Notes under the pieces: model-generated
Told to the model about the DNA's origin: nothing
Database searches by the model: none
The model's input: the letters and a program-made list of their open reading frames with translations, nothing else
Part shown: one piece after another, positions 16,806 to 21,206 of the stretch
How the letters are laid out: each line of letters opens with the position of its first letter
Position numbering within the stretch: the stretch's first letter is position 1
NCBI GenBank assembly: GCA_905233365.1
Contig: CAJODT010000007.1
Location: forward strand, 1 to 50,343
Length of the DNA: 50,343 nucleotides
Direction: 5' to 3'
From: an uncultured Succiniclasticum sp.
GTDB lineage: Bacteria; Bacillota; Negativicutes; Acidaminococcales; Acidaminococcaceae
Translations under genes and position numbers: made by a program

Positions 16806-17633
16806 TTAACAGTTTCCCGTATACACAAATTTTAAATACTCTCGCGCCACGTCTGCCAGCCGGTACACCCGGGCGGCAGGCGTTTCGTTTCTGTCCACCA
16901 TGTTCCAGCGGGGGAAGAACTTGCTCGTATGCAACGGAATGTCCGGCGAAAGGGACGCGATCCATTGGGCGATGGTTTCCATTTCCTCCGGACTGTCGTT
17001 TTCGTTGGGCACGATGAGAGTGGTCAGTTCCACGTGGGCCGTTTTGCAGGCTTCGGTGATGAACGCTTTCACCATTTCCAGGTTGCCTCCAAGTTTATTG
17101 TACCATTCCGGTGTGAAGCCCTTCAGGTCAATGTTGTAAGCGTCCACGATGCCTGCCAGGTTTTTGGCTATTTCCACAGAAAAGTTCCCATTGGTGACCA
17201 CCACGTTCTTCTGTCCGTTACGGTGGACAAGCTCCCCTGTGTCGCGGATAAACTCCCAGCTTAGTAAGGGCTCATTGTAGGTGAAGGCGACGCCGATATT
17301 GTTCCGGTTTTTCAGTTCCAGGGCTTTGGCCGCGATTTGTTCCGGCGTGGCGATGACAGGCTGGAATGCGTCCCGTCCGTATTGGGAAATGGTAAAATTC
17401 TGGCAGAAGGGGCAACGCAGGTTGCAGCCGTAGCTGCCCAGAGACAGAATGGTTGTGCCGGGATAAAACCGGTTAAGGGGTTTCTTTTCAATTGGATCCA
17501 ACGCCAGCGAAGTAAGGAAACCGTAATTGCCGCAGACGTTTTTGCCGTCATGCAGCGTACGGACGCGGCAGAAACCGGTTTTGCCTTCCTGCAGATTGCA
17601 ATGGTGGTGACAGTAGGGACAGGTGTTTGGCAT
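16806..17633 (-). CDS. amrS: AmmeMemoRadiSam system radical SAM enzyme
   Basis: MPNTCPYCHHHC...SLGSYGCNLRCPFCQNFTISQ (CxxxCxxC-type cluster); adjacent Memo/AMMECR1 gene. Confidence 0.88.
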   Translation of the reverse strand: MPNTCPYCHHHCNLQEGKTGFCRVRTLHDGKNVCGNYGFLTSLALDPIEKKPLNRFYPGTTILSLGSYGCNLRCPFCQNFTISQYGRDAFQPVIATPEQIAAKALELKNRNNIGVAFTYNEPLLSWEFIRDTGELVHRNGQKNVVVTNGNFSVEIAKNLAGIVDAYNIDLKGFTPEWYNKLGGNLEMVKAFITEACKTAHVELTTLIVPNENDSPEEMETIAQWIASLSPDIPLHTSKFFPRWNMVDRNETPAARVYRLADVAREYLKFVYTGNC

Positions 17634-17726
17634 AAAATAAACTCCTTGTATGAAAAAACATTAAAGTCCTGCTGATGCTATCTGAATGCAGCAGCTTGTT
17701 CTAAGATGGCGAGGAGTTAAAAAATC

Positions 17727-19118
17727 TCAATAATGCCGTATCACTTCAAACCGCTTCAGTTCACAGCCGCTTTCTTCCGGACGGATGCCCGCCTTCTGTT
17801 TCGCTATGTCGACCTGCTGCTCGATGGTATCCACGCCGGGCAGGTTGGGCAGCAGCAAACCGCTGCGGCTTCCCTTGGTCACCAGTACGCCGTACCTTTT
17901 TACGTCTAACTGGGCAGGGGAGCTGATGGGTTCCATGGGGCCCAGCACGTCCACGCTGTATTCCAGTTCTTCCAGTTCCTCGGGCAGCACCGGGGTGAAG
18001 CGGGGGTCGCGGCTGCAGGCGGAGATGGCGTTGTGCCGGATCTCTTCCGCCACGTTGTCGTACATGGGGCCGATGGTACCGATGCAGCCCCGCAATGCGC
18101 CGCGGATCTTTAACGAAACAAACACGCCGGCTTTTTGTTGCGTCATTTCCGGGGAAATATGCTGGGGCGAGCGCAGGTAGCCGCCCTTGCTGTTCACGTA
18201 ATGTTCAATTACTTCCCGGGCCAGCTTCACGTAGTCGTCTTCTTTGGCCAGCCGTTCCGCTTTCATCCTGCCCCGGATGGTGTCGTAAGCGTTAAGGAAG
18301 TGACGGCTTTCATCTGCCCCGGCAGGGGTGAACAGGGTGACGCCGTAGCCCACGCCGAAGGGCCCTTCGTAGCTCAGCATTTTGCTTTGTACCGCCAGCC
18401 CGTCGAAGGCGCCGGCCATGAGGACGAAGGAACGGTGGCCGCATTCGGCGGCTTCTTCCAGAAACATGTCTTTAAAGGCAAACAGCTCCGGGAAGTTACC
18501 GCTTCCCATCACTTCCATGATTTTTCTATCGTATTCCGGGCCTGCGGGGTTGAAGCCGTAAGGCCCGCTTTTTGTGAGCTTGTGGGATAAATCGCCGCTG
18601 GCGATCCAGGCGATCTTCCGGCCCAGCTTCTCCGCCATCTCCGCAATGAGCATACCCACCCGGTAGTGCTCTTTCAGCGAAAAACCGGAGAGGGCCACCC
18701 GCACGATTTTACAGCTTGTGCAATATTTGGCGAGAAAATACAGCGGCACCATGGTACCGTGATCCAGCTCCGGCTGCCGGTTGCCCAGCGTGCCTGCGGG
18801 GATTCCTCTTTCTTTGGCCGCCGCGTCGATGGCCTTTACCAGCTCTTCATCGTAATTCACACTGAATTTGACCTGGGGCGCGCCGAACTGGGCCAGGGTT
18901 CCTTTGGCGGAAGGGCCCGGCGAGATGTGGAAGTAATCGGAGTACAAAATGGAATGGGGGCTGGAGATGATAACCGTATCTGGCTGCAGGTCCGCAATGA
19001 ATTTCGCAGCTGCTTCGTAAGCGTCGATGGTGGCCTGGATACCTTTTTCCTGTCCGTGTCCCACTTCGGGAACGATGAGGGGCGGATGGGGAACCTGTAC
19101 TGCGCCGAGGATTGCCAT
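17727..19118 (-). CDS. AmmeMemoRadiSam fused proteins B and A (Memo/LigB-like plus AMMECR1 domain)
   Basis: N-term GAVQVPHPPLIVPEVGHG ... IASGDLSHKLTKSGPYGFN; C-term GVFVSLKIRGALRGCIGTIGP. Confidence 0.9.
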   Translation of the reverse strand: MAILGAVQVPHPPLIVPEVGHGQEKGIQATIDAYEAAAKFIADLQPDTVIISSPHSILYSDYFHISPGPSAKGTLAQFGAPQVKFSVNYDEELVKAIDAAAKERGIPAGTLGNRQPELDHGTMVPLYFLAKYCTSCKIVRVALSGFSLKEHYRVGMLIAEMAEKLGRKIAWIASGDLSHKLTKSGPYGFNPAGPEYDRKIMEVMGSGNFPELFAFKDMFLEEAAECGHRSFVLMAGAFDGLAVQSKMLSYEGPFGVGYGVTLFTPAGADESRHFLNAYDTIRGRMKAERLAKEDDYVKLAREVIEHYVNSKGGYLRSPQHISPEMTQQKAGVFVSLKIRGALRGCIGTIGPMYDNVAEEIRHNAISACSRDPRFTPVLPEELEELEYSVDVLGPMEPISSPAQLDVKRYGVLVTKGSRSGLLLPNLPGVDTIEQQVDIAKQKAGIRPEESGCELKRFEVIRHY

Positions 19119-19331: not shown

Positions 19332-21206
19332 GTGATGAAGCCGAATGAAAAAAACGACAATGAAATAAAAAAGGATAATACCACTGGGTCAGTTGAGAGC
19401 GAAGCAGCCGCTAACGCGACGGATAAACCGAATGCGGGTGACGCAGCGCAATCTTCCGCTCCCGTGCAGGAAGTAGACACCGCGTCCGTTAACACAGCGG
19501 AGCAGGATGCGGCAAGCCAGCCAAAACGCCGGCAGCGTCCCAAACGGAAAGGCCGGGCGGTGGCCGGGCAGATTTCCCGACTGAAGATGGCTGTCATGTT
19601 TCTGATTCCCCTGCTGCTTGTAGCGTTCTGGACGGAAATTGCGCCGTTACTAGTGTCTGCCGGTATACGGGGCAGCCTGATCGATCTGCCGGACCCGCAC
19701 GCAGCGGCGAACCTGCGCGGGGTGCTGCAGCTGTTATTACTGTCGCCGGTTTTGTATGCGGGCCGTCAGTTTTATCAGCAGGCGCTGCAGGACCTGCAGG
19801 AACGCATCCCATCAGCGGAAGTGCTGCTTCTGCTCGGTACCCTTGCTGCTGTGACTGGTGGTATATACACATCTATCCATCTGGTACAGGGGCAGCATTA
19901 CTGGAACCTGCCGCCACTGTTCCTTGCCTATATCGGGGTGTGTGTAACGACGGCGCTGGGCAGCGTCTATCTGGACCGCTGGTGCAAGGCGCCTTTGCCG
20001 CAGTTTCTGGATCTGCCCTCCATGTGGCTGGTGAGCGGTTCCATTTTACTGGCCATCGTAGCCTGCCTCAGCTTTTTCTTTACCGGTAAGGCAACCTTCC
20101 CCGTCTGGCAGATTGCCATGTCTATTTTTGTCTGCTGCTGCCCTGTGTTACTGTTGCCTGCTGTCAGTGCGGCAGCCTTTACCGCGGTGCAGAAAGCGGC
20201 GGAGCAGAATATCCTGCTGCGGGACGGAACGATTTTAGGCGACGTGGGTGAAACCTCACTGATCATTTTTGATAAAACGGGAACCCTCACCATAGGTCAT
20301 CCGGTGCTGACGGATATCCATATCTTCAACAACGGTTCCGAGCCGGGTCTGTTAAGTCTGGCAGCTGCCATGCTGCAGGATAGCGATTTGCCGGAAGCCG
20401 CGGCGGTACGGGATGCGGCGGAAGGTTGTAAGCTTCCTCTCTGTACGGAAATCCAATCCACGCCGGAAGGCTGGCACAGCGCCCGCTGCTTTAAGGAAAA
20501 TATCAGGCTGGGCTCTCTGGATTTTGTAAAACGCTATGCCCGGATTCCGCCGGAAACCAACAGGTACGTGGAGCAGATGTCCGATGCGGGCAAGACCGTG
20601 TGGTACCTGACGGTGGGGCGCACCCTGTACGCCATTTTCGGTTTTTCCGATGAACTGCGGGAAGAAACACAGGAAGCCATGCGCAGATTAAAAGAAATGA
20701 ACATTACCACTTCCGTGATGACCGGGGACAATAAGCGGGCGGGTCTGTATCTGGGCAGGCTGGCCGGCGCGGACCGGGTGGCGGCGCAATTGCTGCCCAC
20801 CCATAAGGCGCAGCTGGTGCAGACCTTCCGCAAAGGCGGCGAAATCGTAGCGGTGGTAGGCGACGGGGATAACGACGCCCCGGCGCTGGAGTGTGCGGAC
20901 TTCGGTTTTGCCGTAGGCAGCGGTACCAAAACGGTGTGGAAAGCGGCCCAGGTGGTGCTGACGGACAACGACCTGCGCAACGTGGCGGCTACCTTTAAGC
21001 TGAGCCGCGCCTGCGTGGAAACCATAAAAGGCGATGTGCGCATCGTCTGCATTTGCAACCTGGTGCTTCTGCCCTTTGCTGTGGGTCTGATTTTCTTATT
21101 GGGCGGTCCCCTGCTGCAACCCTGGATGCTGCTGGTGGTGACCATTGTGGCGGCGGCGCTGCTGGCACATAATACATGGAAACTAAAAAGGATAGATTTG
21201 AAATAA
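19332..21206 (+). CDS. P1B-type (CopA/ZntA-like) P-type ATPase homologue lacking the actuator domain
   Basis: DKTGTLT, MTGDNK, VGDGDNDAPAL, P1B-like membrane helices; no TGE(S) actuator segment, CCCP in place of CPC, no HP motif. Confidence 0.8.
   Translation: MMKPNEKNDNEIKKDNTTGSVESEAAANATDKPNAGDAAQSSAPVQEVDTASVNTAEQDAASQPKRRQRPKRKGRAVAGQISRLKMAVMFLIPLLLVAFWTEIAPLLVSAGIRGSLIDLPDPHAAANLRGVLQLLLLSPVLYAGRQFYQQALQDLQERIPSAEVLLLLGTLAAVTGGIYTSIHLVQGQHYWNLPPLFLAYIGVCVTTALGSVYLDRWCKAPLPQFLDLPSMWLVSGSILLAIVACLSFFFTGKATFPVWQIAMSIFVCCCPVLLLPAVSAAAFTAVQKAAEQNILLRDGTILGDVGETSLIIFDKTGTLTIGHPVLTDIHIFNNGSEPGLLSLAAAMLQDSDLPEAAAVRDAAEGCKLPLCTEIQSTPEGWHSARCFKENIRLGSLDFVKRYARIPPETNRYVEQMSDAGKTVWYLTVGRTLYAIFGFSDELREETQEAMRRLKEMNITTSVMTGDNKRAGLYLGRLAGADRVAAQLLPTHKAQLVQTFRKGGEIVAVVGDGDNDAPALECADFGFAVGSGTKTVWKAAQVVLTDNDLRNVAATFKLSRACVETIKGDVRIVCICNLVLLPFAVGLIFLLGGPLLQPWMLLVVTIVAAALLAHNTWKLKRIDLK

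Follow-up and report, generated by a model that had tools for sequence, protein, structure and literature searches.

The window, i.e., the whole stretch of 50,343 nucleotides from an uncultured Succiniclasticum sp. that was analysed, encodes at positions 19332-21206 (+) a protein that is probably a pseudoenzyme derived from a P1B pump. The 624-aa product has a CopA-type pump of the Acidaminococcaceae as its ancestor and has had its actuator (A) domain removed between the membrane helices M2 and M3; erosion has also reached its metal and nucleotide motifs, and it is under strong purifying selection. It is likely a conserved pseudo-P1B ATPase and not a pump, in which the P-N module, carried by a membrane domain like that of a pump, probably acts as a scaffold or sensor.

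The open frame runs uninterrupted for 624 codons, starting with GTG at 19332 and with ATG as the next codon at 19335, and the probability of an equally long open random frame of the same composition is about 3e-11. Its product is a P1B (CopA-type) homologue with eight membrane helices and both a P and an N domain. Residues 1-83 (19332-19580, +), assigned from Pfam, comparison of orthologues, and the model, whose confidence is low at residues 1-41 and 64-70, constitute an N-terminal tail that is acidic and alanine-rich with a VQEVDT motif and then carries a Lys/Arg cluster; it is situated where P1B pumps usually have their metal-binding domain and is devoid of an HMA metal-binding domain. Helices MA, MB, M1, and M2 (residues 84-217; 19581-19982, +) were assigned from hydropathy and from the predicted structure, in which they span residues 75-109, 122-156, 162-185, and 196-217, the last of them with low confidence. 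Helices M3 and M4 (residues 218-291; 19983-20204, +), the N domain (residues 336-440; 20337-20651, +), and helices M5 and M6 (residues 549-619; 20976-21188, +) follow from alignment and model. Intact in the window copy are the phosphorylation-loop motif DKTGT (residues 314-318; 20271-20285, +) as well as TGDNK (residues 464-468; 20721-20735, +) and the hinge/Mg motif GDGDND (residues 510-515; 20859-20876, +) of the P domain, all three evident in sequence and alignment. The initial annotation, made from the sequence alone, had described such an uninterrupted frame with these motifs and with an N-terminal extension of this composition, and both are confirmed.

In the alignment with the nearest intact pump, L020, none of the 113 expected A-domain residues is present. 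M2 runs directly into M3 at residues 216-219 (RWCK; 19977-19988, +), SVYLD closing M2 and RWCKAPLPQFLD opening M3 with nothing between them, and TGES has no counterpart. The Pfam match begins only after this junction: the A-domain model PF00122 yields just a C-terminal fragment below the cut-off, covering model positions 108-180, i.e., the last 73 and thus the M3-M4 part, and the HAD hydrolase (P-N) domain is recognised. The protein is P1B-like by every profile searched, scoring below the cut-offs of the NCBIfam heavy-metal ATPase models TIGR01525 (266.5 bits versus 346.25) and TIGR01511 (195.7 bits versus 397), and sequence matches to solved structures (LpCopA and others) have their widest coverage at residues 218-622. 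An AlphaFold model based on a 52-row alignment, which included P1B pumps from viral-contig loci, has a mean pLDDT of 83 and a pTM of 0.79, with the P-N part above 90; a model from only five close sequences was unusable (pLDDT 31). The prediction contains eight long helices together with the P-N module, and four residues lie between M2 and M3, M2 itself being weakly supported due to alignment rows that are shifted over it; the membrane domain MA-M6 is present according to both hydropathy and model. Superposition on LpCopA (3RFU) extends over 530 residues (Z 31.2, rmsd 3.4) with the A domain absent. An A domain hidden elsewhere in the protein was rejected, since none is seen in the model and Pfam finds neither an HMA nor an A-domain match in the tail. 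The earlier claim that the actuator domain including TGES is absent therefore holds in the alignment and in the structure. As the A domain is the one whole domain missing in Succiniclasticum, we also considered that another gene might supply it in trans; nothing in favour of such a split pump was found, no stand-alone A-domain ORF exceeded the Pfam cut-off in the window's genome or in 14 related genomes, and other motifs are degraded as well, rendering this explanation extremely improbable.

The CPC motif of M4 had initially been read as CCCP. The site is indeed altered, although the aligned form is CPV (20139-20147, +; alignment and model), the first cysteine being retained and the second one gone, and in relatives it appears as CPI, CPS, CPA, or SPA. 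The MxxSS motif of M6 is absent from the window copy according to alignment and model. Among the nucleotide motifs of the N domain, SxHP is replaced by SDLP (the SDLPEA reported initially), GxGxxG by PEGWHS, and GN by GS within LGSL. The reported lack of the Gly-rich nucleotide segment is therefore correct, but the N domain persists as a fold with a predicted pLDDT above 90, the replacements being confined to its ATP-signature residues. A point against a non-catalytic protein is that nucleotide can still be bound when just the HP histidine is lost, as a CopA P-N fragment with a His-to-Gln exchange was crystallised with AMPPCP (3A1E).

The gene is found in all 14 Succiniclasticum genomes, among them that of S. 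ruminis DSM 9236 (family Acidaminococcaceae). All 13 whole copies lack the A domain and have an identical M2/M3 junction, and the remaining copy, from G007, ends at a contig edge. An assembly error or frameshift was rejected because the same architecture recurs in 13 independent assemblies, and a recent private deletion because loss of the A domain is genus-wide. Pairwise Nei-Gojobori estimates, which are rough where dS exceeds 1, give a dN/dS of 0.11-0.19 for the A-less gene in the main Succiniclasticum clade, and of 0.22-0.34 among three deep-branching Succiniclasticum species; intact CopA, compared in four of the main-clade species pairs, gives 0.10-0.12. Purifying selection on the A-less protein is about as strong as on intact CopA (dN/dS about 0.11 and 0.10, respectively), and the low dN/dS means that the gene is no decaying relic. 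In some lineages motifs are eroded and the protein evolves faster, which might point to a decaying gene or a sequencing artefact; however, the gene is uninterrupted in 13 independent assemblies including that of a named strain, dN/dS is near 0.11, and one junction occurs in all, so that conservation refutes this explanation and leaves it a negligible probability.

Within the main Succiniclasticum clade, the A-less protein changes most slowly in its P and N domains. In the ten main-clade species, dN/dS of the P domain is 0.01-0.07 where computable. For the N domain, three of four species pairs give a lower value in the A-less protein (0.05-0.06) than in intact CopA (0.11-0.15), and the remaining pair gives 0.081 and 0.076, respectively. 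MA-M2 and M5-M6 change faster than P-N, which argues against a passive or uncoupled path in which the membrane domain, ungated without an A domain, would let a metal ion run down its gradient. All eight helices are present and one Cys-Pro of the M4 site is kept in most species, as might be expected of such a path, but the second CPC cysteine and the M6 motif are lost throughout, the site reads SPA in L015, and CPC is wholly lost in L021 and in genus g2; passive flux is therefore very unlikely. Judging from the same two losses, and from those relatives that retain a metal-binding domain (L094, L096, L097, and L100), where its first cysteine is replaced, binding of metal would also be less likely. 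An intact CopA of about 900 aa is encoded as well in the Succiniclasticum genomes examined, and the A-less protein might be its regulatory partner in a mixed complex. However, G018, a genome with a completeness rating of 100%, has a degenerate member and no intact CopA-type pump among its listed matches, and we give this possibility slightly less credence still than passive flux.

In Succiniclasticum, the gene is preceded by FBPase, the radical SAM protein AmrS, and MEMO/AMMECR1, and followed by a serine hydrolase, in some genomes AzlD/AzlC, then DUF1015 and SerC, where MEMO/AMMECR1, serine hydrolase, and DUF1015 are named from Pfam and other names were partly given by eye. The set of neighbours varies by genome, AzlC/AzlD being missing at three deep-branching loci, and although the neighbours are conserved, they lie on other strands or apart from the A-less gene. 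AmmeMemoRadiSam is a widespread gene set of unknown function; its genes, encoding a radical SAM protein and a fused MEMO/AMMECR1 protein, occupy 16806-19118 of the window and are divergent from the A-less gene, as they are at nearly every Succiniclasticum locus examined. At the loci compared, no neighbour or operon partner is conserved across all genera of the clade described below.

Maximum-likelihood analysis places the window protein inside a clade of 25 rows (support 100/100) consisting of one short-branched intact pump of 746 aa (L020, from G015) and otherwise degenerate members; the window protein is 42% identical to L020 from residue 216 onward. As long branches can attract each other, the seven degenerate lineages were also treed one at a time, and each attaches to L020, the support labels beside the L020 branch being 98-100 and possibly shifted by rerooting. 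As far as sampled, the clade is confined to the Acidaminococcaceae, with members in 29 of 59 family genomes and 8 of 18 genera, the degenerate ones in 28 genomes and 7 genera (profile matches counted). No A-less relative from outside the family is among the class- and phylum-level matches listed, all of which began at or after the M2/M3 junction, distant relatives being possible. The initial annotation had suggested that a family would be defined if orthologues had this architecture too; they do, and the family is larger than expected. L020 in G015, L022 in G018, and the A-less gene of the neighbouring genus G030 are each located within about 5 kb of one uS9-uL13-TruA-ECF transporter cluster, identified by eye, and the G030 gene also lies beside DUF1015-SerC, the downstream neighbours in Succiniclasticum; this synteny is evidence that the A-less protein descended vertically from a G015-like pump. 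By parsimony, loss of the A domain requires two changes, and a single A-less clade is not rejected (p-AU 0.33).

The degenerate members differ in the parts that they have lost. In G030, the A domain is gone save for a 29-residue remnant and CPC is lost, DKTGT being kept. The G018 member has TGEV, CPS, and SGGNR, those of G023/G035 have TGSS/TGNS, GKTGT, and SSCHND/SGCHND, and that of G034 has TDVT, CPG, and AKTGL. In G073, TGSF, YPC, and SCHKD are found and the N domain is gone, frames of 595-600 aa of this kind being present in three further g16 genomes. Members from genus g2 lack the A domain and GDGxND, and in all five of them DKTGT has become DESFA, DEGFA, or DEALA, i.e., the aspartate stays and the KTGT loop is gone. 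DKTGT is also lost in L019 (SETGT), L096/L097 (GKTGT), L100 (AKTGL), and L094 (SCHKD), indicating that pump catalysis is dispensable in this clade. The whole clade might have arisen from one ancestral CopA paralogue that is apparently still a pump in one genus, whereas in seven others varying essential parts of it (A domain, N domain, phosphorylation motif, and metal sites) disappeared and selection maintained a new function shared by all members, probably in signalling or scaffolding via the P-N module; we put forward this family-wide conversion tentatively, rating it a little below an even chance. At three g2 loci (L146 8414-10664, L147 6956-9377, and L152 7997-10376), the degenerate gene and a gene for a MerR-family regulator overlap at the end of the latter, with small multidrug resistance genes nearby. 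At two loci of genus g16 (L148 7097-8872 and L149 7712-9487), a pseudo-pump without N domain and without DKTGT is located upstream of an RNase J gene.

Other unusual P1B proteins were encountered as well. In three of three sampled genomes of one genus (G027, G081, and G082), P1B pumps of 613-616 aa lack the N domain, with metal-binding domain, TGES, CPC, DKTGT, and GDGVND intact (L089 1060-2901, L090 1076-2923, and L091 198-2036). A Zn/Cd-type P1B-like protein from G014 (L092 1341-3251) has an A domain of 85 instead of 113 residues without the TGES loop, its other motifs being intact. The window's own genome contains an unusually long P-type ATPase open frame of 1133 aa (G000:C9:17231-17764; L002) with a metal-binding motif, TGEP, and CPC. 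Relatives of P1B-type ATPases, many nearly full length, occur on 63 IMG/VR viral contigs (L162-L224), viral carriage being putative.

In P-type ATPases, TGES dephosphorylates the aspartyl phosphate, and rotation of the A domain is coupled to M1-M3. From this biochemistry, a protein without the TGES loop should have no programmed dephosphorylation, one without an A domain should have no rotation to move M1-M3, and the window protein should consequently neither pass through a Post-Albers cycle nor pump metal. The homologue and structure checks thus lend good support to the early proposal of a pseudo-pump without a normal cycle, and of the initial interpretation these points and the family stand, the roles offered there of metal sensor, chaperone, or phosphatase being conjectural. 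With less certainty, the cytosolic P-N module would be the working part: anchored to the membrane through the eight pump-like helices, it would probably bind or sense a further protein or a ligand, as a scaffold or sensor and not as a catalyst. Against a non-catalytic reading, the P domain has intact HAD motifs and the very low dN/dS given above, which would be natural if chemistry persists. The main rival is therefore a membrane-tethered HAD-type switch, in which the Succiniclasticum P domain would be autophosphorylated slowly or act on a small phosphorylated compound, slow unassisted dephosphorylation serving as timer or sensor and motif-less lineages being later decayed forms. All HAD motifs are kept in the ten main-clade species (DKTGT, TGDNK, which reads TADNK in two of them, and GDGDND), dN/dS is low for the P and N domains, and DKTGT is kept in G030 too. 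However, the ATP signatures of the N domain are replaced, and within the same genus L017/L018 have GNDSYD in place of GDGxND and L019 has SETGT and GRGADD and thus no Asp, yet these genes are open and have a dN/dS of 0.22-0.34. We consider such a switch unlikely, and give still less weight to passive flux, to a split pump, and to a mixed CopA complex. Phosphatase or autokinase activity, as far as the motifs tell, would be possible only in members keeping DKTGT, and several do not.

The pseudo-P1B ATPase that we favour is a selected protein with the full membrane domain of a pump and a P-N module but no A domain, so the scaffold can serve without pumping, and in Succiniclasticum, a genus of rumen bacteria, and in its relatives a pump has apparently been turned into a non-pump. 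With an intact ancestor-like pump and intermediate stages in one clade, the order in which functions were lost and replaced becomes testable. As these genes resemble copper exporters by sequence and most of them should not confer copper export, annotation calls for caution.

MJ0968-type soluble P-type-ATPase-like proteins consist of a P-N module and have neither an A domain nor a membrane domain; the window protein is like them in having P-N without an A domain and differs in keeping all eight helices. With CopA-type Cu(I) P1B-1 ATPases (LpCopA, 3RFU/4BBJ; L020) it shares helices MA-M6, the P and N domains, and DKTGT/TGDN/GDGxND, whereas the A domain, TGES, SxHP, GxG, GN, the metal-binding domain, and the M6 motif are missing and CPC is CPV. 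A review describes A, P, N, and M as machinery that all P-type ATPases share, and expects further unexplored diversity of these enzymes in prokaryotes (PMC10654040). In the open literature searched, which leaves most subscription journals outside its scope, there is neither a bacterial P-type ATPase pseudoenzyme family nor an A-domain-less P-type ATPase. The window protein resembles pseudoenzymes in general (reviews PMC5106787 and PMC10211241) in that the fold is kept, catalytic motifs are lost, and the gene is selected. An apicomplexan guanylyl cyclase with a fused P4-ATPase-like domain likewise employs a P-type module beyond simple ion pumping; that domain, however, keeps the catalytic Asp and has been reported to be both catalytically active and essential (PMC7858053).
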